Below, one piece after another: positions 24,839-46,400 of a stretch of 64,000 nucleotides of DNA. Below the pieces are notes generated by a model, which searched no databases, had not been told where the DNA came from, and saw nothing but the letters and a program-made list of their open reading frames with translations. How positions within the stretch are numbered: the stretch's first letter is position 1; each line of letters begins with the position of its first letter. A program made the position numbers and the translations under genes. Source of the stretch: Caldilineae bacterium (lineage in GTDB: Bacteria; Chloroflexota; Anaerolineae; DUEN01); the NCBI GenBank assembly GCA_011176545.1, contig DUEN01000004.1:1-64000 (forward strand), written 5' to 3'.

Positions 24839-25420
24839 CTAACCTACTTTGAGGGTGATCTCCAGGCCGCTGCCGATGGGCACCGTGATGGTCTCCAGCG
24901 CGGGATCCTCCCTCACCCTCTTCACATAAGAGGCCACAGCTTCGGCGTGGGAGAGGATGTTGTCAGCGACCACGACGCTACCAGGCAGGAGCTTGGGGAG
25001 GACCAGATCCAGAAACAGGGGATACCTGGGTTTGTCGGCGTCGATGAAGACGAAGTCGAAGGGGCCGCTGAGTTGTGGGATAGTCTCCTCCGCGTCTCCC
25101 ACGACGATCTCCACGATATCGGCGAGGCCGGCGCGCTCCAGCGTCTCACGAGCGGCTGCCGCCCGCTCCGCGGAGATCTCACAGGTGATGACGCGGCCCC
25201 CATTAGGCCGCGTAGCATCGGCCAGCCAGAGCGTGGAATATCCGAAGGACGTGCCGATCTCCAGCAGCCGGGTCGCCCGGATAGCCTGGATCAGCACGTG
25301 GAGGAAACGGGCGGCATCCGGATGGAGCGCCCACATCCGTGGCTCCGTTATCTCACCCGCTCGCTCGCGACGGGCGCGAGCTTCCAATTCCGCGATCACT
25401 TCAGCGATTCTGGGCTCCAT
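24839..25420 (-). CDS. SAM-dependent O-methyltransferase
   Basis: LLEIGTSFGYSTLWLADATRPNGGRVITCEIS; FDFVFIDADKPRYPLFLDLVLPKLLPGSVVVADNIL. Confidence 0.92.
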   Translation of the reverse strand: MEPRIAEVIAELEARARRERAGEITEPRMWALHPDAARFLHVLIQAIRATRLLEIGTSFGYSTLWLADATRPNGGRVITCEISAERAAAARETLERAGLADIVEIVVGDAEETIPQLSGPFDFVFIDADKPRYPLFLDLVLPKLLPGSVVVADNILSHAEAVASYVKRVREDPALETITVPIGSGLEITLKVG

Positions 25421-25456: not shown

Positions 25457-25846
25457 TCATTCTCCTTCGCGTGATCGGAAGGCGGTCGCGGTCTGTGGCT
25501 GTATCAGATACCAGATCATGAGGGCTCCGATCACCGTGCCAAGGGGGAAATTGAAGAGGCGTAGGATGGATAGCCCGATGGCGCCAATGCGTGCCCATTC
25601 GACCATGCGCCATAGCCCCCAGCCGATGACCAGATCCGCCACAGCCAGGGCGAAGAGCAACGCCGCCCCCAATATCATGATTACGCCAACGATGGGCACG
25701 GCGACACGAGCGTCCGGATCGCCGCTCGCGGCCACTCCCACGATCAAGGGGATCGTTAACATCACACACGATCCCAACAAAGTGAGCGCTCCCACGACGA
25801 AATGGTAGAGCGCGATCACCAGCACGCCATCGGGCCGTCTTCTCAT
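25457..25846 (-). CDS. Small integral membrane protein of unknown function
   Basis: About four predicted TM segments; 16 nt after the upstream gene's stop. Confidence 0.6.
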   Translation of the reverse strand: MRRRPDGVLVIALYHFVVGALTLLGSCVMLTIPLIVGVAASGDPDARVAVPIVGVIMILGAALLFALAVADLVIGWGLWRMVEWARIGAIGLSILRLFNFPLGTVIGALMIWYLIQPQTATAFRSREGE

Positions 25847-25862
25847 GATGAGCCTCCCTTGC

Positions 25863-26984
25863 TCACTGTACCTGAACGAACGTATCGTCCTGCACCTGGA
25901 AGATGAACACCCTGGGATCTCGCAGGTCGCCGTTTTCGTTATAACTGACGGGGCCGATCACGGTGTCGATCCGCGCCTCCCGCAGGGCCTGGGCGACCTT
26001 CAGGCCTTCGATGTCATCCGCCCGCCGCGCGCCCTCCGCCAGCACGGTCATGGCCACATAGCCGTTGATGGAGTATGTGTCCGGGTTCCGATATTCCACC
26101 GCCTGATAGGCCTTGATCCAATCCTCATCCACCGCCAGGGCCGGGCTGGGTGCAAACGCGCTTACATACATCCCCTCCGCGGTCCCGTCGGATTCGTCGA
26201 TGGTGGCCGACAGGAAGGCGCCATCGCTGGCCAGCATGGGCACGGTAATCCCCGCGCGCACCAGGGCCGCCCGCAGGTAGGGCGCCTCGATCTCATAGCC
26301 GGCGTAGAAGATCGCGTCAGGCTTCGCCTCCTGGATGCGCCTCACCTCATCCGCGTATTCGGATTGCCCCTCGGCGACCTGAAGCGTGAGCACAACCTCG
26401 GCCCCCAGGCGCTCAAGCTCGCTGATGATCAGATCACGCAGTCCGACGCCATACTCGGTGTCATTATGCACCACGGCCACGCGTCGCGCGCCCAAGGTCT
26501 CCACGAGGAAGGCTGCATCGATTCGGGCCTGCACGGCGTCGTTGGCGTTCACCCGGAAGAAATTACGATACCCGCGCTGCGTGAGCGAGAGCTCTGAGGC
26601 GGTCGGCGTGATGACCACGATGGGGAGGTCCTTATAGATCTCCATCGCCGCCAGTGTCTGGCCGCTGTTGTAATGCCCGATGACGCCGAGCACGCGCTCC
26701 CCGCGCTGCACGGCCTCACGCACCTGTTCGGCTACCACCACGGCGACCTCGGAGTCGGACTCGTCATCCAGGGCGATCACCTTGATCTGATACCCTAACA
26801 GCCCTCCTGATCGGTTGATCTCCTCGGCCGCGAGCCGTACCCCGCCCACTACCGTCTGCCCCCCGTTGGCCTGGAAGCCGGAAAGGGGCGCGGCCACATA
26901 AACGATGACCTCCCCCTTCGGGCCAGGCGCGCATCCGGATACCAACAAGCCGAGCAGCCCTAACCACAGCACGACCCATCGCAT
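25863..26984 (-). CDS. Periplasmic ligand-binding lipoprotein (branched-chain amino acid SBP type)
   Basis: Lipobox LLVSGCAPG; AAPLSGFQANGGQTVVGGVRLAAEEINRSGGLLGYQIKVIALDDESD. ORF opens at 27026, but the extra N-terminus matches a simple repeat, so MRWVVLW is preferred. Confidence 0.85.
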   Translation of the reverse strand: MRWVVLWLGLLGLLVSGCAPGPKGEVIVYVAAPLSGFQANGGQTVVGGVRLAAEEINRSGGLLGYQIKVIALDDESDSEVAVVVAEQVREAVQRGERVLGVIGHYNSGQTLAAMEIYKDLPIVVITPTASELSLTQRGYRNFFRVNANDAVQARIDAAFLVETLGARRVAVVHNDTEYGVGLRDLIISELERLGAEVVLTLQVAEGQSEYADEVRRIQEAKPDAIFYAGYEIEAPYLRAALVRAGITVPMLASDGAFLSATIDESDGTAEGMYVSAFAPSPALAVDEDWIKAYQAVEYRNPDTYSINGYVAMTVLAEGARRADDIEGLKVAQALREARIDTVIGPVSYNENGDLRDPRVFIFQVQDDTFVQVQ

Positions 26985-27022
26985 CCCCAATCTCCCCCTC
27001 CTAATCTCCAATCTCCCCTTCT

Positions 27023-27838
27023 TCATGGCGCCTCATATACCTCTTCAATCGCCTGCACGATGTCCTGCAACGCGGCGATCTGGTCCGCGATATCCTGCCG
27101 CAGCCGGCGCGCCCGATCGCTGTCCACGTCTCGTGCGCCGATCAACTGGATCTGAGAGTAGATCGTCCCCAACGCCGAGATGGTGGACTCGAGCTGATAG
27201 CGCGCCCGATCCATCGTATTATCCAACGCCTCCAGGCTGCGCCATTGGGCCTCCCGGCTGGCCAGCGCGGCCTCCAACTGAGTCCTCACATCGGGATCGT
27301 CCTCCCTGCGTAGCTGGGCACGCAGCCGGCGGATGTCCTCCGGCACCTTCTCTCGATCGCGGCGGATGATCGGGTCAGACTGGTACGCATCCAGCTTCTG
27401 AGCCAGCCGATAGAGGTTCTCCAGCCAATCCTCCAACTGCCGGATGGTATCCAGTAAATGATCCCGCAACACGCCGGCGCGCTGCTGCCGCACCAGCCGC
27501 TCCATGCGTTCGTGATAGCCCAAAGCCTGCTCGACCTGGGCGCGCAGCGACGGGTTGCGGATCCGCCGCGGGTTAAATCGCTGGCGGAACAGATCCGCCA
27601 CCACGCGGGCATTGACCTCCGGATCGGTCAGGCTCGTGTAGAAGATGAGGACCTCGGCGACGAGAGCCATCGCCCCCCATCCCCAGATCGGCCAGCCCGG
27701 GAACGGCTGAGGCAGAAAGGCCGTGAGCAGGATGGCGCCAGCGATGATCACCGCGCTCTCCCATCGGAAGAGCGCGTATTGTATCATTGCTTGACGCGCT
27801 TGTCGTTCGATCTGATCGCGTAACCGTTCGCGGCTCAT
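27023..27838 (-). CDS. Two-TM protein with long coiled-coil cytoplasmic region, unknown function
   Basis: Two hydrophobic segments (AVIIAGAILLTAFLP, WGWGAMALVAEVLIFYTSL) then heptad-rich helical sequence. Confidence 0.6.
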   Translation of the reverse strand: MSRERLRDQIERQARQAMIQYALFRWESAVIIAGAILLTAFLPQPFPGWPIWGWGAMALVAEVLIFYTSLTDPEVNARVVADLFRQRFNPRRIRNPSLRAQVEQALGYHERMERLVRQQRAGVLRDHLLDTIRQLEDWLENLYRLAQKLDAYQSDPIIRRDREKVPEDIRRLRAQLRREDDPDVRTQLEAALASREAQWRSLEALDNTMDRARYQLESTISALGTIYSQIQLIGARDVDSDRARRLRQDIADQIAALQDIVQAIEEVYEAP

Positions 27839-29577
27839 TAGAAGTAGCTGGATAGGATCTTATAGAGTTGGCGGATCGTCTCCAGGTCGCCCTGGCGTAC
27901 CTGTCCTCCCGACGCCTCCGCCAGTGCCTTCAGCACATCGTAATCGGCATCTTCTCCATAGGCGATGGCGAAGATCACCACTGGCGGCCCCTCCTCGTTG
28001 TCGGTCCGTATCTCACGGACTAGCACTTCCAGGTTCGTGTCAGAAGCGTTCTCCTTGCCATCGGTCATCACGACGATGGCGTTAATGCGCTCCGTGTCAT
28101 TCAGCCGCCGCAGGCGCACATAGGCGGCGCGCACAGCATCCAGCAGGGCAGTGTTGCCGCTCGCCTCCAACTGGTCGATACGCTGCATTAGGATTTCCCG
28201 ATTTTCCCCCAGCTCTGCCAATGGTTCAATGTGGGTGATCTGGCTGTTGAACTCGATCATCCCCACCCGCTCCAGATCGCCCTTGATCTGATCCAGGAAG
28301 ATGCGCAACGCCTGCTGGGCGGCCTCCAGCTTCTCCCCGGCCATGCTGCCCGATGTATCCACTACCAGGAAGACGTTGGTATGGCGCTTGGTGTACCACC
28401 ATACGTTGCGCACTACCTCGACCACCTGGGGACTGGGGATCTGAAGCGTGGTCTGCGGCTGGGCCGGATCGACGCCGTTCTTCGCGGTAAGGGGAGAATC
28501 CGGCCCAGTCAGCGGGATGCTCAGATCAGCCGGGCGATATCCGGCCGCCAGGATCGCCTGCTGTATTGGGCGAGATAGCAGGTACTCGCGGAAGGCTTGA
28601 AACGTCCGACGCTGATTGGCCGTCGGCTCCGGTCGTTCCAGGAGGGCCAGCGGATGGTCAGCCCACAGCGTCCCTTCCACAGGGTAGATAGCCACCAGCC
28701 GTTCGGAGGGATTCTCCCGATTGAACTGGACGACGAGCTGTTCCTGGATCACAAACGCGTCCAAATAGCGGCGACCCTCCGCTCGAGCGCGCTCTAGGAC
28801 CGCGAGCTCTCCCTCGCCATAATATCGCACCGTCCGCTCGATGGCCGCCACATACTCCAGCGTCGCCGGGGCCTGCGCGTCCTCGATCGTCAGATCGCGT
28901 ACCTTCCCCGCGGCGGCGTAGAATTCGGCCAGCGTCGCCAGCAGGCCGCTGGCGTGAGCGGTAGACGCGTGGTTCCACTTGAAGTTCGGGTCCTCCTGAG
29001 CCTTGCGCTGGATATCCTGCCATCCCACCGGGCGGTCCGGCCAACCCAGATCGCGAGCGACCGATTCCCACGCGGCGATGACGATGGGGCTGATCGCATA
29101 GCGGATCGTATCGGCGATCATGCGCGGCGCGATGATTCCCTCTTCCCCCACGCGGTCGGCGTACTCCCGATCGAGCTGGTCCAGCCAGAGGGAGGAGTCC
29201 GGGTTAAGCGCCTGGATCGAGGCCGGTGTATCCTGCTCGGACAGCGCCTGCGCCAGCGCCACCTCGACCATCTGCTCGGGGTCCATGACCTGGATCTGGA
29301 CGGACATTACTCGGCCGTCGGGGGTGCGCAGCTCCTGATCATTAAATTGCTCCGCCAGCTTACGAAGCAACGCCTCCTTCTCGGGCGAGACGGCCACCAC
29401 CAAGACGGCCGAGCGGGAGTCCGACGGGGTGACCTGGGAGGTGACGGACGGCTTTTTGGTGACGACCCATAGGGCGAAGATGAACACACAGCAGGCTAGC
29501 AAGATACTGGTAGTAGCCAGAGCGATCCCGATCAGCAGGCCCCGAGAGGAGCGAACCCTACGCATACGTGGGGACAT
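27838..29577 (-). CDS. Membrane-anchored solute-binding domain fused to von Willebrand factor A domain
   Basis: N-terminal TM LLIGIALATTSILLACCVFIFAL; SBP-like middle region; MIDAS NVFLVVDTSGSMAGEKLEAAQQALRIFLDQI. Confidence 0.85.
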   Translation of the reverse strand: MSPRMRRVRSSRGLLIGIALATTSILLACCVFIFALWVVTKKPSVTSQVTPSDSRSAVLVVAVSPEKEALLRKLAEQFNDQELRTPDGRVMSVQIQVMDPEQMVEVALAQALSEQDTPASIQALNPDSSLWLDQLDREYADRVGEEGIIAPRMIADTIRYAISPIVIAAWESVARDLGWPDRPVGWQDIQRKAQEDPNFKWNHASTAHASGLLATLAEFYAAAGKVRDLTIEDAQAPATLEYVAAIERTVRYYGEGELAVLERARAEGRRYLDAFVIQEQLVVQFNRENPSERLVAIYPVEGTLWADHPLALLERPEPTANQRRTFQAFREYLLSRPIQQAILAAGYRPADLSIPLTGPDSPLTAKNGVDPAQPQTTLQIPSPQVVEVVRNVWWYTKRHTNVFLVVDTSGSMAGEKLEAAQQALRIFLDQIKGDLERVGMIEFNSQITHIEPLAELGENREILMQRIDQLEASGNTALLDAVRAAYVRLRRLNDTERINAIVVMTDGKENASDTNLEVLVREIRTDNEEGPPVVIFAIAYGEDADYDVLKALAEASGGQVRQGDLETIRQLYKILSSYF

Positions 29578-29581
29578 GGCG

Positions 29582-30826
29582 CTACCTCTGCGCCACGTTC
29601 AGGTCGAACCAACGCAGGAGGGCCAGCAACACGTCCCGATCCGGCGAACGCATGGCCTCGGTGCGCGGCACCACGGGGCGCACGCCTCGATCCTGATAAC
29701 GCACGAACAGGCTGTCCCCCTCGGTGACGGACACCTCCGGGTTGGCCGGGCGGAGCCCGTATGCCACCGCCTGCCGCTGGATCTCGGGAGAGAGGAGGAA
29801 CCGCTCGAATTCCAGGGCCGCGTTCTTCTCCGGGGCGGTGGTCTCCGGCCCCATCCACACGGTGAACGGGAAGTCGAACCAAGTGACGTACTTGGGGTAA
29901 TAGATGCGCAGCGGCTCCGCCCAGCGCGTCTCGATGCCGATCATATTGGTCAGCAGATCGCTCTCCAGGAGTTGGCCCCCATCGCCTACGGAGTAGCCAA
30001 AGAGGGCGAAGTCCTCCGCTGTGTAGGCGCTGCCGCCGCTCACGTCGGTGACCGCGCTCATGAGCTCGCCCAGCCAGCGCTGGAACTCGGGATTCGTCAC
30101 GTCCGCCGTGGAGATGTCAGGACGGCCGTAGTACTCGCCAGCGGCGGCGATCATGGCCGCCAGCCCGCCCACGTTCTTGCGTGGGTTGGGGACGACGAGC
30201 TTGAAGAAGCCCCACTCAGGAGGGCCGCCCAGCTCCGGCCAGCCCCCCTTGGCGATCGCCGCGTCGTGAATGGTGTGCCAGTTGATCTCGCCGAAGCGAG
30301 CCTCCAGGACCCGCGCTCGGCTCTCGTAGATCCCCCAGGCGAACAGCGAGATGGCGATGGGGCGCGCCCGATACTCGCCGTCCGTGAGGAAGACGTCGCG
30401 CCCCAGCCGTTCCTTGTACGTGACATTGGCCAGCTCTACCAGATAGCGGGAGTCCGGGATCCAGACGGTGGGGAAACGCTCCAGGCGCTCGCGCTCCTCC
30501 ACGCTGAGTTCCTCCAGCGAGCGTTCCCCTAGCACGCCGAACTCGTCCCGGTCCCACTTGCCCAGCGCGGCCAGCCCATCCATGGCGATGATCTCTACTT
30601 GGATGGGCTCGCCCTCCAGCTTGTGTTCTTTATCGTTGAACTGCCGGGCCGCCGCCCGCACCCAGGGCTCCACGGGCAGCGCGGTGATGACCCGCACCTG
30701 AATGGGGCCGCGCGGCTTCACCGTGAGGGGCTCGGGCTGACGAAGCGCCCGCCAGGCGAGGGAGGCGCCGACGATGATCAGCGCCAGCAGCACGACGACG
30801 AAGAAGACGATCCGTGTTCGGTTCAT
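29582..30826 (-). CDS. Membrane-anchored extracellular solute-binding protein
   Basis: N-terminal TM IVFFVVVLLALIIVGASLAW; SBP-like sequence with FLLSPEIQRQAVAYGLRPANPEV. Confidence 0.8.
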   Translation of the reverse strand: MNRTRIVFFVVVLLALIIVGASLAWRALRQPEPLTVKPRGPIQVRVITALPVEPWVRAAARQFNDKEHKLEGEPIQVEIIAMDGLAALGKWDRDEFGVLGERSLEELSVEERERLERFPTVWIPDSRYLVELANVTYKERLGRDVFLTDGEYRARPIAISLFAWGIYESRARVLEARFGEINWHTIHDAAIAKGGWPELGGPPEWGFFKLVVPNPRKNVGGLAAMIAAAGEYYGRPDISTADVTNPEFQRWLGELMSAVTDVSGGSAYTAEDFALFGYSVGDGGQLLESDLLTNMIGIETRWAEPLRIYYPKYVTWFDFPFTVWMGPETTAPEKNAALEFERFLLSPEIQRQAVAYGLRPANPEVSVTEGDSLFVRYQDRGVRPVVPRTEAMRSPDRDVLLALLRWFDLNVAQR

Positions 30827-30856
30827 CCACGGCCCTTTCGCGACGACCCACGCCGA

Positions 30857-31534
30857 TTATAGAAGCCCAAGCCGCTTCTTACGCTCCGCGAGCTGCGCCT
30901 CCAGCTTGTGGCGCTCCAGCACCTCGTCCATCTGGGCATCCAGGCGCTGGGCATACATCTCAGACTGCGCCTGGGCCTTGTCCAGGCGGGCCCGGATACT
31001 CTCGGCCACACGGGCGATATCCGAATCGCCGATTCCCACCAAGTCATCCAGCGAGCGAATGGCCTGAACCGTGATCTCCTTCGACTTGGCCAAATCCAGG
31101 AGCGCCCGCAACTCTTCCCGCTCCTGCTTCACGGTCGTCAGGCGGGCCTCCAGCTTCAGCTTGGCGTCCAGCAGCTTCTGATATTCCGCCTCCTGGCGGG
31201 CCAGTTGCTCACGGTAATTCTCAAGCAGGCGTTGGGTGGAGTTGAGCTTGCTCTGGGCGGCCATGGCCAGCTCTTCGCGCCCTTCCTGTAGGAAAAGGTC
31301 GATGTTGCGGTCCAGCTCCGCCACCTTCTGCTCGTATTCCTCGGTCTTGCGCTTCAGCGTCTTCACCTGCCCACCGACGGTGGCCGCCGCGTCCTCCAGA
31401 TCCTCCAGGTGGTCCTCGATCTGACGGATGTACTGATCGACGACCGCCAGGGAGTTGGCCTTCAGCGCTCGATCGACCAGGGCGTGCAGATTCGCCCGGA
31501 TCAGGGTATCCACTTTTTCCAACAGAGAAGCCAT
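30857..31534 (-). CDS. PspA/IM30 family protein
   Basis: MASLLEKVDTLIRANLHALVDRALKANSLAVVDQYIRQIEDHLEDLEDAAATVGGQVKTLKRKTEEYEQKVAELDRN. Confidence 0.88.
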   Translation of the reverse strand: MASLLEKVDTLIRANLHALVDRALKANSLAVVDQYIRQIEDHLEDLEDAAATVGGQVKTLKRKTEEYEQKVAELDRNIDLFLQEGREELAMAAQSKLNSTQRLLENYREQLARQEAEYQKLLDAKLKLEARLTTVKQEREELRALLDLAKSKEITVQAIRSLDDLVGIGDSDIARVAESIRARLDKAQAQSEMYAQRLDAQMDEVLERHKLEAQLAERKKRLGLL

Positions 31535-31562
31535 GATCTCGTCCTCCTTAACAGAGTTTCCC

Positions 31563-31595
31563 AGGTGCCCGGCACTTTCAAAGTGCCGGGCACCT
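31563..31595. repeat. Perfect inverted repeat, 16-bp arms, in the leader of the PspA-like gene
   Basis: aggtgcccggcacttt c aaagtgccgggcacct. Confidence 0.85.
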
Positions 31596-31701
31596 AGCCG
31601 GTATCATCATCGCGCTGGGAGGACATGGAGACATGACCCCCAACAGACGCGAAGCTGACAGATCGGGACGTTCATGTTGGGAATAGACGGTGTCATCCGT
31701 C

Positions 31702-31759
31702 GTAGGGACGCACGGCCGTGCGCCCCGTATTAAGGTGAGGGCGAGGCATGCCTCGCCCT
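31702..31759. repeat. Two adjacent palindrome-family copies
   Basis: gtagggacgcacggccgtgcgccccgta and agggcgaggcatgcctcgccct. Confidence 0.7.
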
Positions 31760-31782
31760 TATCCTATCGTCGTGTGTGCTAT

Positions 31783-31858
31783 AGATCTTCGTCTAGAAAA
31801 AGCAACACCTCTGGGAAGTGACAGGGTCCTGTAGGGGCGACCGGCCGGTCGCCCCTAC
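31783..31858. repeat. Linker A plus perfect palindrome-family copy
   Basis: agatcttcgtctagaaaaagcaaca then gtaggggcgaccggccggtcgcccctac (identical to 16277-16304). Confidence 0.8.
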
Positions 31859-32005
31859 AAAATCCGCACATTATGAGGTCATCCGAGCTCTACGTCGGTT
31901 CCAGAAGTTTATCCGAAACGAATGACAAAGCCACATGTTTCTTTCGCTGTGAGAAGGTCCGATAAATGATGGATCGAGAAGGCGGTTCCTGTATCCGAAC
32001 GGGGC

Positions 32006-33445
32006 TCAGCCGCCCACCAGCTTATAGCCGCGGCCGCGCACGGTGATCAGATAGCGCGGGTGGGATGGATCGGGCTCGATCTTCTGGCGCAGCCTGCTGA
32101 CGAGCTTCTCGATCCGGGCGTCGTCAACCTCGTTGATGTACGCCTCGCCCCAGACGGATTCCACGACGGTGTACTTATCACAGATCTTCCCCATACGCCC
32201 ATATAGCAACAACAGCAGCCGATATTCCAGGTTGGTCAACGCCGGCACCGGCTTTCCATCCACGTAGACCTCGCCCGAATCCACATCAACGACGATGCCC
32301 CGCGCCTCGGGGCGCTGGACCAGGTGCTGACGCTGGACATACTCTGTGAAGGCCCGGCTGAACAGCTGGGGATCATCGCCGTTGGCGACGAGGACCCGCT
32401 TTTGCCAGAGGGAGGTCAATCCGACGGGATTGGGCTGCTGTCCCGGATCGAAGAGTGCCAGGAGAGCGGCCTGTTCCTCGTCCGTGAGCTGGCGCCATAT
32501 CTTGGTGCACTCGGAGCGCACGTTCAGGCTAGAGCCGAGGCGCTCCTCGACCTGGCGGTGGATGATGCGATCCTGCAAAGCGTCCCGCACAGGCTCCCCG
32601 GTGACCGAGCCCAACTCCCAACATACGGCCTCCAGCAATCCGGGATGTCCCCCGGCCCACTCCAGAATGAAGCGTATGTCGGCCTCGTCAAACGTGACCG
32701 GCTCTCGCCGGATGAAGGCAGCGATGAACTGTCGCGCGTCCAACTCGCTGAGGGGGCCCAAATAGAAACGATGATGGGCGAACAACTCATTGAACTCGCC
32801 TACATCCTCGCCGCCGCGGATCTCCCCGAGCCGACGATTAGTTGCGGTGACATAGGTTAGGCAGCCCGGATACTGATCCCGCAGAGCTCGCAGGTTGAGG
32901 AAGACGCGGCCTTCAATGCGCGCCAGAGGGGCATCGAACTCATCGAACAGGAGCACCAGCCGGCGTTGTAACTGGTTGATCAGAGCGGTGATGGCCTGAT
33001 TGAAGCTGAGTGGGACGTGAAACGGGCTAGGAGGGCTCACGACGGCCTCGTAAGCTGTGCGTACCTCCCGGGTGAGGTCTCGGGCCTGTATCGGCTCGCG
33101 CAGCTGATCCAGGATGCAGCGAAGGACCAGCTCGTAGAATCCCTGATCGCTCATTTCCAGCATGCGGTTACAATCGATGTAAACTAACGCCAGCTGCTCA
33201 GCTTCCGATCCCAGATGGGCCCGCTGCACCTCGGGATCACAGAGCAGGCGCATAAAGAACGACTTGCCGATATTGCTGATGCCCACGACGGAGCACGGCT
33301 CCAATCGATGAATATAGCCCAGGAGCTCTCGGGCCTCTTGCCAGCGTGGATGGGTAGCTGTCCTGGCTTGGGCCTGGTCACACGTCATCGTCAAACGCTC
33401 CATCCTTTCTTCAGCGATTCGTAGGACACACAACGTCGCATGCAT
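32006..33445 (-). CDS. P-loop ATPase fused to C-terminal OmpR/PhoB-type winged-helix domain (transcriptional regulator)
   Basis: SVVGISNIGKSFFMRLL P-loop, RRLVLLFDEFDAPL Walker B; C-terminal LTNLEYRLLLLLYGRMGKICDKYTVVESVWGEAYINEVDDARIEKLVSRLRQKIEPDPSHPRYLITVRGRGYKLV. Start may be internal, near 33403. Confidence 0.85.
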   Translation of the reverse strand: MHATLCVLRIAEERMERLTMTCDQAQARTATHPRWQEARELLGYIHRLEPCSVVGISNIGKSFFMRLLCDPEVQRAHLGSEAEQLALVYIDCNRMLEMSDQGFYELVLRCILDQLREPIQARDLTREVRTAYEAVVSPPSPFHVPLSFNQAITALINQLQRRLVLLFDEFDAPLARIEGRVFLNLRALRDQYPGCLTYVTATNRRLGEIRGGEDVGEFNELFAHHRFYLGPLSELDARQFIAAFIRREPVTFDEADIRFILEWAGGHPGLLEAVCWELGSVTGEPVRDALQDRIIHRQVEERLGSSLNVRSECTKIWRQLTDEEQAALLALFDPGQQPNPVGLTSLWQKRVLVANGDDPQLFSRAFTEYVQRQHLVQRPEARGIVVDVDSGEVYVDGKPVPALTNLEYRLLLLLYGRMGKICDKYTVVESVWGEAYINEVDDARIEKLVSRLRQKIEPDPSHPRYLITVRGRGYKLVGG

Positions 33446-42435: not shown

Positions 42436-43470
42436 CTAAGACGCGTACAGGTGACACTCCACCAGGCGACCGTCCTCCCACCGCACGAGGGGCACCGGCT
42501 CGCGGCACTTCGGCATCGCCCGGGGACATCGATCCTGAAATCGACAGCCCGGCGGCAGATGGATGGGCGTCGGCACCGACTCCTTGATGAGCAACGCGGA
42601 AGCCCGATGATGTGGATCGGGCACAGGCACAGCGGAGACGAGCGCCTGCGTGTACGGATGCAGTGGCTCGCCGATCACTCGCTCCGTGGGGCCCAGCTCG
42701 ACGATGCGCCCCAAATACATGATCGCCGTGCGTTCACACATGTATTGAATCAGTGACAGATCATGGGAGATATAGATCACGGCCAGGTTGAGCTCTCGCC
42801 GCATCTCCCGCATTAAGTTCAGGATGCCCGCCCTCACCGAGACGTCCAGCATGGAGACTGGCTCGTCGGCCACCAGGAAGATGGGCTCCAACACCAGGGC
42901 GCGAGCCAACACGACGCGCTGTAGCTGTCCCCCGCTCAACTGATGAGGATATTTGCCCAGGAAGTTCCCCGGCGGGCTCAGGTGGACCCGCTCCAATGCC
43001 TGGAAGACGCGCTCCTCCCGTTCCTGGGCATCGCCGATGCCGTGGATAAGCAACGGCTCCAGGATCGACCGATAGATGGTGAAGCGAGGATTCAGCGCTT
43101 CGTAGGGGTTCTGGAACATGAGCTGGGCGCGACGTCGGAAGAGCTTCAGATCTGCCCCCGATAGGTCCCGCAACGACCGGCCATCGAAGAGGATCTCCCC
43201 TTCCGTCGGCTCCATCAGCTTGAGCACTAGCTTCCCCGTCGTCGTCTTGCCACATCCGCTCTCCCCTGCCAGGCCCAGCGATTCCCCGGGATGGAGGTCA
43301 AAGCTCACGCCATCCACGGCCCGGATGGCCAAGCCGTCTCCCTGGCCGCGGAGCGCGGCCCAGAAGCCCTGACGCAGAGGGAAGTACTTCTTGAGATCCC
43401 GCACTCGGAGCAAAGGTTCGGCTGCGGCGCGTGTCTGGGCCTGTTCGGCCGCTACGCGAGGGTCTGCCAC
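42436..43470 (-). CDS. Oligo/dipeptide ABC transporter ATP-binding protein (DppF/OppF type)
   Basis: [47 protein letters not shown]; oligopeptide-type C-terminus [17 protein letters not shown]. Confidence 0.95.
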
Positions 43471-44462
43471 GTCTCCACCTCCTGCGCCCGAGCTCGTAGC
43501 TCCTCCACATCATCCGTGCGATGACAGGCCACCTGATGTCCTTCCTCTACCTCGATCAATTCTGGCTCCGCCTCCCGACAATCGGGCAGGGCGAAGGGAC
43601 ACCGATCGGCGAACCGGCACCCCGGCGGGGGATGGATCAGATCCGGGAGGTATCCCTCGATGGAAATCAGCTCATCCCGGGGTTGCGCCAGATTGGGAAA
43701 AGCCTGCTTCAAGCCCAGGGTATAGGGATGAAAGGGGTGATAAAAGATCTGATCGACGCTCCCCCACTCCATCATCTTCCCCGCATACATCACGATCACA
43801 GAGTCGCACGTCTGCGCCACGACCGACATGTCATGCGTGATCATCAGCACGGAGAGGGAGAGCTCATGCTGAAGCTCGCGGAAGCGCTGCAACACCTGAT
43901 GTTGCACGATGACGTCCAGCGCGGTCACGGGCTCATCGGCGATGATCAGGGCCGGCTCCAAAGCCAGGGACATGGCGATCACGGCGCGCTGCTTCATCCC
44001 CCCGCTGAACTCGTGAGGATAGTAGCGCAGCCGACTCGGATCGAGGCCCACCAGCTGGAAGAGCTCATGAGCCCGCTCCCAGGCGGCCCTCCGATCGTAT
44101 CCTCCTCGTTCCACCAGTACCTCAACGATCTGATCGCCGACGCGATACACGGGATCCAGGGCGTCCATGGACGATTGCGGGATCATGGCGATCTCACGCC
44201 AGCGGATATGTCGCATCTCCCGCTCTCTTAGCTTCAGCAAATCTTGCCCCTGAAACGAGATCTCCCCCTCCACGATCCGGGCGTTACGAGGCAGCACGCG
44301 AATGATCGCCCGCCCCACCGTCGTCTTCCCACAGCCGCTCTCGCCGATCAATCCCAGATGCTCCCCCTGCTCCATGGAGAAGCCCACGCCATCCACGGCC
44401 TTGACTGCGCCATGCCTTGTCTCGTAATAGACCCGCAAGTCATGGATGTCTAACAGGGCCAT
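43452..44462 (-). CDS. Oligo/dipeptide ABC transporter ATP-binding protein (DppD/OppD type)
   Basis: [72 protein letters not shown]. Confidence 0.95.
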   Translation of the reverse strand: MALLDIHDLRVYYETRHGAVKAVDGVGFSMEQGEHLGLIGESGCGKTTVGRAIIRVLPRNARIVEGEISFQGQDLLKLREREMRHIRWREIAMIPQSSMDALDPVYRVGDQIVEVLVERGGYDRRAAWERAHELFQLVGLDPSRLRYYPHEFSGGMKQRAVIAMSLALEPALIIADEPVTALDVIVQHQVLQRFRELQHELSLSVLMITHDMSVVAQTCDSVIVMYAGKMMEWGSVDQIFYHPFHPYTLGLKQAFPNLAQPRDELISIEGYLPDLIHPPPGCRFADRCPFALPDCREAEPELIEVEEGHQVACHRTDDVEELRARAQEVETWQTLA

Positions 44463-44472
44463 ACGACCTCCG

Positions 44473-45405
44473 CTACTGTCGCTGAAGCCGCGGGAAGAGG
44501 ACCTCCTCGAATCCCCTCCCGATGAAGAAGCCGGCCATCACCGTCAGCATGATGCACAGGCCGGGCGGGATGAACCAGTAATACGCCTGACGCGCCATGG
44601 CCTGAGACACATAAGCATCCTGCAGCATATAGCCCCAGCTGATGGTGTTGGGATCACCGAATCCCAGGAAGCTGACGGAGGCCTCCGTCAGGATGGCCCA
44701 GCCGATCGCCAGGGAGCCGTACAAGAAGCTGAGGGGCAGGATGTTCGGCGCGATGTATAAGAACATGATGCGCAAATCGCTGGCGCCGGAGACTCGCGCC
44801 GCCTCCACGAAGCTCCGCTCGCGCACCGTCAGCACCTGAGAGCGGATCACCCGGCCCGAGTCCCGCCACAAAAGCAGGGCCATGGCCGCCACGGTGTTCC
44901 AGATGCTGGGCTTCAAGAACGCGACCAGCACGATGACGAGCGGCAGGAAGGGAATGCCGAAGGCGATATCCGTGATACGCATCAGGATCGTATCCACGAT
45001 GCCCCCATAATACCCGGCGATCAACCCCACGACGGTCCCGATGATGGCCACGGCCAAAGCGGCGGTGAATCCGACCAGCAAGGCGGCGCGGGCCCCATAC
45101 ACGAGCTGGGAGAAGATGTCCCGCCCGACGTTCGTCGTGCCCAACAGGAACTTGGCCGACGGCTTCTGGTTCACCATCCAGTTGCCCGCCTCATCCGTGA
45201 CGATGACCTGAGGATCGTAGGGCGCGATATACGGGGCGAAGATCGCCACAAGCAGGAAGAAGAGGTAGATCAAAGCACCCACCAGCGCGAAACGGTCCTG
45301 GCGCAACACCTGGGCCGAGGCCCGCAGCGCGCTGACCAGGTTCTCCACCACCCATGAACGGCGCCAAGTCGCCTGCGGAACGGTCGCCATCGTTTCGCTC
45401 GTCAT
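44473..45405 (-). CDS. ABC transporter permease (DppC type)
   Basis: LLGTTNVGRDIFSQLVYGARAALLVGFTAALAVAIIGTVVGLIAGYYGG; EAARVSGASDLRIMFLYIAPNILP. Confidence 0.95.
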   Translation of the reverse strand: MTSETMATVPQATWRRSWVVENLVSALRASAQVLRQDRFALVGALIYLFFLLVAIFAPYIAPYDPQVIVTDEAGNWMVNQKPSAKFLLGTTNVGRDIFSQLVYGARAALLVGFTAALAVAIIGTVVGLIAGYYGGIVDTILMRITDIAFGIPFLPLVIVLVAFLKPSIWNTVAAMALLLWRDSGRVIRSQVLTVRERSFVEAARVSGASDLRIMFLYIAPNILPLSFLYGSLAIGWAILTEASVSFLGFGDPNTISWGYMLQDAYVSQAMARQAYYWFIPPGLCIMLTVMAGFFIGRGFEEVLFPRLQRQ

Positions 45406-46400
45406 CCCCCTGCCCTCCTGGCGGTTGAGACGCGCGGATCCAACAGCCCGTATAACAGATCGGCGACGAAATTCATCACGACCATGACGACGGCGATGAG
45501 GAAGAACGCCCCCTGAGCCAGCGGATAATCGCTGGAGCTGACCGCCCGGACCAACAGACGGCCGATCCCCGGCCAGCCGAAGACGTTCTCGATCACCACG
45601 TTCCCTCCGATGCTGTACCCCACGCCCAACGCCATCGCCGTCACGACAGGAAGCAACGCGTTACGAGCCGCATGCCGTAGCATGATGCGCCACTCGGATA
45701 GCCCCTTCATGCGGGCCATGATGATGAAGTCCTCCTCCAACACGTCCAGCATGTTATTGCGCATCAAGAGCAGCGGCAGTCCATGGAGATATAGAGCCAT
45801 CGTCAAGGCCGGGAGCGCCAGATGATGCCAGAAATCTAAGGATAAGATCTTGTCCAACTCCGAGGCGTAGACCGTGCCAGGGCTGGTGGCTCCGGAGGAG
45901 GGGAACCATCCCAGGCTGAAGGAGAAGATCGTCAGGGCGATCATGCCGACCCAGAACTCGGGGGCGGCGCGGGTCATCAGCGTGAAGATGAGCCCCGTCT
46001 TCTCCAGCCAGGTCCCCCGCTGCCAGGCCATGATAACGCCGCCGATCACCCCGAACACGTAGGCCAGGATAAGCGCGACACCCGTGAGGAAGACAGTGTT
46101 CGGGAAGGCCTCCCAGACTAGCTCAGCTACGGAGTCCCGGTAGAAGAACGACTGCCCCAACTCCCCCCTCAGGAGGTTCCCGAGGTAGACGAAATATTGC
46201 ACCCACAGCGGCTTATCAAGCCCGAACTGACGCAGCAGGGCCTCCTGCTGCTCCTCGGTGAACGTGGGGTCGATATAAGCCACCAGCGGATTACCTGGGG
46301 CCAGCCGGAAGATCAGAAAGAGGATCGTGACGATGACCCAAAGCACCAAAACGCTCTGCAACAGGCGACCGACCAGGTAACGCCAGCGCCCTTGTGCCAT
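45402..46400 (-). CDS. ABC transporter permease (DppB type)
   Basis: WRYLVGRLLQSVLVLWVIVTILFLIFRLAPGNPLVAYIDP; MARMKGLSEWRIMLRHAARNALLPVVTAMAL. Confidence 0.95.
   Translation of the reverse strand: MAQGRWRYLVGRLLQSVLVLWVIVTILFLIFRLAPGNPLVAYIDPTFTEEQQEALLRQFGLDKPLWVQYFVYLGNLLRGELGQSFFYRDSVAELVWEAFPNTVFLTGVALILAYVFGVIGGVIMAWQRGTWLEKTGLIFTLMTRAAPEFWVGMIALTIFSFSLGWFPSSGATSPGTVYASELDKILSLDFWHHLALPALTMALYLHGLPLLLMRNNMLDVLEEDFIIMARMKGLSEWRIMLRHAARNALLPVVTAMALGVGYSIGGNVVIENVFGWPGIGRLLVRAVSSSDYPLAQGAFFLIAVVMVVMNFVADLLYGLLDPRVSTARRAGG

Follow-up and report, generated by a model that had tools for sequence, protein, structure and literature searches.

Six tightly packed open reading frames (ORFs), A to F, occupy positions 25,457 to 31,534 on the minus strand of contig DUEN01000004.1 (GenBank assembly GCA_011176545.1), from a Caldilineae bacterium of the phylum Chloroflexota; the whole stretch analysed, positions 1 to 64,000 of this contig, is referred to below as the window. 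We favour, with slightly better than even confidence, the reading that these genes encode an assembly without a transporter that senses the envelope and maintains the membrane, as a Chloroflexota form of the phage shock protein (PSP) response. In the order of transcription, the products are PspA/IM30 (A), an anchored ectodomain with a solute-binding protein (SBP) fold (B), an SBP-VWA protein (C), a transmembrane (TM) coiled-coil protein (D), a LivJ-type lipoprotein (E), and a small multi-TM protein (F). A sequence-only reading had described six same-strand genes with near-zero gaps or overlaps, and the ORF check agreed at every position (gaps of 30 nt for A-B and 4 nt for B-C, overlaps of 1 nt for C/D and 4 nt for D/E, and a gap of 16 nt for E-F). 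It had also counted three proteins with SBP-type domains, one of them fused to a VWA domain with a metal ion-dependent adhesion site (MIDAS), which was upheld by Pfam for C and E, by structure for B, and by invariant MIDAS residues.

Conservation was evaluated in two samples: 65 loci from other genomes (L035-L099) obtained by scanning Chloroflexota contigs with C, and a whole-genome collection of 41 relatives' genomes, most from different families. Both collections share some metagenome-assembled genomes (MAGs), so the two sets are not fully independent, and neither are the loci phylogenetically independent of each other. Gene order was counted with profiles of each family, over loci long enough to test. 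B stood directly before C in 53 of 54 testable Chloroflexota loci, PspA was upstream of B, at a distance of no more than 3.5 kb, in 31 of 40, D followed C in 43 of 50, and E was within 6 kb in 37 of 39. Full-length C was recovered at E<1e-160 in 24 of the 41 relatives' genomes, with B before it and D or E after it in most contigs that were long enough. Dozens of genomes, with proteins 30-80% identical, repeat the operon order, which rules out a chance neighbourhood; rather than being limited to this genome, it is conserved across the host's class of Chloroflexota. Because the order is kept across the class, we take the operon to be old and selected as a unit; F, present in 4 of 37 testable loci, is an optional member. 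Most Caldilineaceae loci among L091-L099 are reduced to B-C-E or B-C; they lack D and, if the upstream region is included, PspA as well. L094 and L098, which fall within the same range of identifiers, are not Caldilineaceae and carry complete loci.

The absence of a transporter also extends beyond this genome. Profiles of the Liv-type and BPD_transp_1 permeases and of the ABC ATPases that the host itself encodes were run on all 104 loci bearing C, and an import permease was found inside the operon in none of them (0/104). The lack of a permease or ABC ATPase first noticed in this operon is therefore also the rule in relatives, where transporter genes might have been regular. An ABC ATPase occurred inside the operon in one locus (L046), paired with an ABC-2 membrane protein, an exporter type. 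Within 3 kb of the operon, Opp-type permeases were encoded on the opposite strand in four related loci, Liv-type permeases just upstream in L090, and one ABC ATPase in L123. The window's own operon contains no ABC transporter gene, the closest one in the window being an Opp-type set more than 11 kb away, at about 42,856-46,052. Although SBPs are present (B, C, and E), the scan excludes the layout of an importer operon.

Two of the three binding-type proteins were recognized by Pfam and the third by its predicted structure. B (29,582-30,826; 414 aa) falls under the Pfam SBP cut-off (21.6 vs 27) and had no match among PDB sequences, while Foldseek with its AlphaFold model (mean pLDDT 87.4) matched 278 PDB chains at E<=0.001. 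Every chain listed is a binding protein, the top matches being the solute-binding protein STM0429 (4r6y), the sulfate-binding protein 1sbp, MalE, PotF, and ferric-binding proteins (FbpA). As modelled, B is an SBP fold; it has a predicted N-terminal TM anchor at residues 1-29 and is a paralogue of the SBP part of C, which it weakly matches by sequence. Its ligand cannot be inferred from the structural matches, as these are scattered over many ligand classes. C (27,838-29,577; 579 aa) is an N-terminally anchored protein that joins SBP_bac_11 (Pfam score 47.1, cut-off 25) to a VWA domain (60.1, cut-off 23.8) with a complete MIDAS (DxSxS, T, D); 49 homologues all share its residues D407, S409, S411, T476, and D506. 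E (25,863-27,026; 387 aa) is a LivJ-type (type I SBP) lipoprotein matching PF13458 (Peripla_BP_6) at 175.1 bits (cut-off 31.7), with a lipoprotein Cys32 that is invariant in 46 homologues. Closest to E among solved sequences are the amino-acid-binding protein 3ip5 and proteins of the Leu/Ile/Val-binding type, with 4n0q and 1z15 also among the closest. Positions S121, T142, S144, Y192, and E245/E247 of E are nearly invariant and align with the amino-acid pocket of 3ip5 and the LIV-binding proteins; given this near-invariance, an amino-acid-like ligand is our best guess.

On the cytoplasmic side, A (30,857-31,534; 225 aa) belongs to the PspA/IM30 family of the ESCRT-III superfamily (PF04012, 62.4 bits, cut-off 33.9). 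It was the sole match to our A5 profile across the host genome and thus the only PspA found there, and its family alignment (42 rows) has a mean column identity of 64%. It scored below the equivalog cut-off for E. coli PspA (TIGR02977, 36.9 vs 242.95) and below that for the LiaH type (19.2 vs 380). Five loci (L040, L042, L045, L047, and L098) carry two tandem PspA genes before B, the second only about 41-46% identical to the window PspA.

D (27,023-27,838; 271 aa) is the candidate link between the two sides. From a family alignment of 54 rows and an AlphaFold model (pLDDT 80.9), it is predicted to form a TM hairpin (residues ~26-71) followed by cytoplasmic coiled-coil helices, the putative topology following from the basic N-terminus and the predicted hairpin. 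The fold had no PDB match at E<0.001 (a weak likeness to BAR domains was not significant), and none of the 54 members scanned had an accepted Pfam family. XpaC (PF10112) was considered and rejected as an identity for D: 4 of the 54 proteins were weak matches (best 2.4e-5) and none was above the cut-off in the 41 genomes, making a distant likeness possible at most; TelA, the usual partner of XpaC, was sought as a hidden partner and is absent from these 41 genomes of the window's class. D and PspA tend to vary together. Among loci in which both ends could be judged, D was canonical in 33 and divergent in 2 that bear PspA, and missing in 5 and divergent in 3 that lack it. In its N-terminal/TM part, D shows 45% identity within PspA-type loci and 43% between PspA-type and kinase-type loci, whereas the corresponding values for the C-terminal tail (residues 216-268) are 55% and 21%. 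As the tail is conserved only among PspA-type loci, the simplest reading of these sequences is that it matches the cytoplasmic partner and would dock PspA in loci of the window's type.

Comparison with more distant loci suggests what is oldest in this assembly. Outside the window's class, B-C is often found without PspA and E, and many such loci have a remote D. The B and D of these other-class loci are homologous to those of the window (for D, hhalign 97.8%, E 7e-13), and in Miltoncostaea (Actinomycetota) the product of the gene that follows SBP-VWA in turn matches the D of other Chloroflexota classes (hhalign 97.2%). B-C-D is an older module, to which PspA and the LivJ protein were added in particular lineages. 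The idea of all six genes as one system is supported, with two qualifications: two of the genes are additions to an older module, and F is optional. In family f55 (genomes of 4-14 Mb), B is fused to an N-terminal Ser/Thr kinase in all 9 loci with an intact B (L114, L115, and L131-L137), directly before C, and a zinc ribbon precedes the kinase in both of the fusions scanned with Pfam. Of all the single observations, this fusion argues most strongly for B being a receptor ectodomain, and a Ser/Thr kinase joined to an extracellular SBP domain before SBP-VWA is a receptor kinase architecture that deserves a study of its own. Within the window's class, a kinase gene preceded by WD40 genes lies immediately before B in L073, L087, and L089. 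PP2C genes are also upstream in L073 and L087, where PspA is absent, and a YfbK-type VWA gene follows E (by Pfam in L087 and by similarity in L073); the contig of L089 begins 2.7 kb before B, too near to judge PspA. In these two loci (L073:886-5896 and L087:246-6135), PP2C, leucine-rich-repeat, WD40, and kinase genes before B-C-D-E form a phosphosignalling cluster in the place of PspA. SPFH/NfeD-type proteins are known partners of PspA. Genes for both NfeD and SPFH lie between D and E in L051, and a gene of the SPFH cluster, assigned by clustering, occupies the same place in L054 and L062. A broader idea, which we put forward only tentatively and consider possible rather than probable, is that B-C-D is a widespread modular TM receptor. 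Its SBP-fold ectodomains would form a pair, one of them bearing a MIDAS VWA, and a TM coiled-coil protein would couple them to exchangeable cytoplasmic outputs (the PspA ESCRT-III polymer in the Anaerolineae, a Ser/Thr kinase elsewhere in Chloroflexota, and possibly TelA in some proteobacteria). If so, the window type would be a ligand-gated ESCRT-III response.

For the window itself, we hypothesize that the binding-protein folds of B, C, and E sit on the outer face of the membrane and sense a ligand or the state of the wall, with E probably binding an amino-acid-like ligand and the VWA-MIDAS of C making metal-dependent partner contacts that may couple the ectodomains. The hairpin of D would span the membrane, present its coiled coil to the cytoplasm, and pass the state inward, where PspA, as an ESCRT-III-type protein, may be recruited or released by the D tail at the inner face and shore up the membrane. 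A protein encoded upstream (R, described below) probably sets the expression of A-F. The kinase-B fusions in the nine f55 loci support the sensing part of this proposal, and the SPFH/NfeD inserts together with the sole PspA of the genome support the membrane-stress part. Along with the missing import permeases, these observations favour the earlier suggestion of a ligand-sensing or membrane-stress assembly over import, although sensing is what we infer from them.

Several points weigh against this proposal. PspA is missing in 9 of 40 loci, including the Caldilineaceae loci that have only B-C-E, and is therefore not indispensable to B and C. No Pfam match to PspB/PspC, LiaI/LiaF, or Toastrack was found in A-F or R, and a PspC-domain protein is encoded on another contig of the host genome, itself a MAG (92.7% complete, 5.6% contaminated). 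The kinase-type loci form one small clade, and hence the contrast in the D tail could reflect descent rather than partner matching.

Other explanations draw on the same observations. B, C, and E could be surface scaffolds, in which SBP folds that have lost ligand signalling, together with the MIDAS VWA, build an adhesion or assembly structure and PspA merely protects the membrane there. VWA domains are typical protein-protein modules, the MIDAS of C is invariant, and B is far from all ligand-specific SBPs in its PDB and Foldseek comparisons; however, E retains an amino-acid-type pocket, and the fusion of B to a cytoplasmic kinase is the usual layout of a receptor, which leads us to regard scaffolding as rather unlikely. 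The same fusion, found in another class, would suit a B-C-D that is primarily a Ser/Thr-kinase phosphosignalling receptor with PspA as a secondary recruit in one lineage, as would the kinase, PP2C, and VWA genes beside B-C-D-E in L073 and L087 and the loci of other classes that have B-C-D without PspA. We judge this improbable for the window type, whose operon has no kinase and whose conserved cytoplasmic partner is PspA. Finally, B, C, and E may deliver ligand to ABC permeases encoded elsewhere, PspA being a co-transcribed stress partner: the host genome has 12 Liv-type and 144 BPD_transp_1 permease matches, and SBPs without an adjacent permease are common. Set against this are the 104 operons without an import permease, the membrane anchors of B and C, the VWA domain of C, and the fact that the host's LivJ paralogue on contig C36, whose gene neighbours are LivHM and two ABC ATPases, shares just 31% identity with E, and we consider such distant import very unlikely.

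No system of this composition was found among open-access papers, in line with the sequence-only reading, which could name none, and the locus is best filed with the PSP kind, having PspA but no classical partner in the operon. With the known PSP responses (PspA with PspBC, LiaIFSR, or ClgR-PspMN), it shares a PspA/ESCRT-III core, an integral membrane partner, and an upstream regulator in one neighbourhood; it differs in lacking PspB/C, LiaI/F, and Toastrack and in having a surface SBP, an SBP-VWA protein, and a LivJ lipoprotein. D, with its predicted TM hairpin, resembles in outline the two-TM PspM of the ClgR-PspMN form, and PspM is reported only in Actinobacteria in a survey of PSP partners (PMC11237479). 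The nearest case in that survey is a PspA operon with an ABC ATPase, a permease, and a PBPB-OmpA protein (PMC11237479). Such operons share PspA and a solute-binding-fold surface protein with the present one but have a transporter and an AAA+ ATPase, whereas the A-F operon lacks a permease and adds two more SBP-fold proteins as well as a VWA domain. The term VWA is absent from the main text of this survey, and the terms VWA, solute, substrate-binding, and Chloroflexi are all absent from another (PMC9239133). Bacillus subtilis requires the SPFH protein YdjI, together with YdjG/H, for PspA to reach the membrane (PMC8581546). In ydjFGHI, membrane proteins and an SPFH protein thus tether PspA; SPFH and NfeD genes occur in L051 and, by clustering, SPFH genes in L054 and L062, but ydjFGHI is without SBP or VWA surface proteins.

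SBP-VWA is an architecture already annotated ("Substrate-binding and VWA domain-containing protein") in Actinomycetota and Pseudomonadota, at 25-34% identity to C; unlike the window, the stretches of these loci that were examined carry no annotated PspA or LivJ gene. The Variovorax SBP-VWA gene adjoins TelA, where the window locus has PspA instead. On a Variovorax plasmid (L154), flotillin and OB-fold genes lie to one side of the SBP-VWA and TelA genes, and Wadjet (Jet) genes lie to the other. The Variovorax TM-coiled-coil protein and the product of the upstream gene were considered as homologues of D and B, and homology was not detected. Ter-type systems are known for triads of kinase, PP2C, and VWA genes. 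L073 and L087 combine such genes with B-C-D-E, and the window's own locus is without them.

The remaining genes are less constant. F (25,457-25,846; 129 aa) has homologues in 8 loci. R (32,006-33,445, minus strand) is an AAA/STAND-like P-loop ATPase (weak AAA_16 match) with a C-terminal OmpR-type winged helix (Trans_reg_C, 65.4 bits); genomes with R have essentially one copy of it, usually on the strand of C and a few kb away, and it is probably the regulator of the A-F operon. The 471-nt spacer between R and A (31,535-32,005, minus strand) contains a strong Shine-Dalgarno sequence (AAGGAGG) before PspA and short GC-rich palindromes and is the probable start of the A-F transcript; a promoter/terminator scan was too noisy to locate this start. 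A SecA gene lies upstream of R in the window, and a SecA-like gene is upstream in several relatives. The methyltransferase gene after F (24,839-25,420) was rejected as a member of the system, as it does not recur in the neighbourhoods of relatives. In L049, L052, and L053, E is followed by a related gene whose start resembles, by eye only, prolipoprotein diacylglyceryl transferase. HEPN_Swt1-like genes are located close upstream of B in L080 (4463-5329) and L099 (5292-6362). A role in anti-phage defence was also considered and set aside, no convincing PADLOC match being found.

This locus bears on the open question of how bacterial PspA learns of stress outside the cell in species other than E. 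coli and Bacillus. The chain that it suggests is specific and can be tested: binding domains at the surface, a single membrane protein, and an ESCRT-III homologue, all in a phylum that has seen hardly any genetics. The kinase-fused B homologues provide a direct route to what B senses. Binding proteins that are without a transporter across a whole class would be a clear case of SBPs as receptors.

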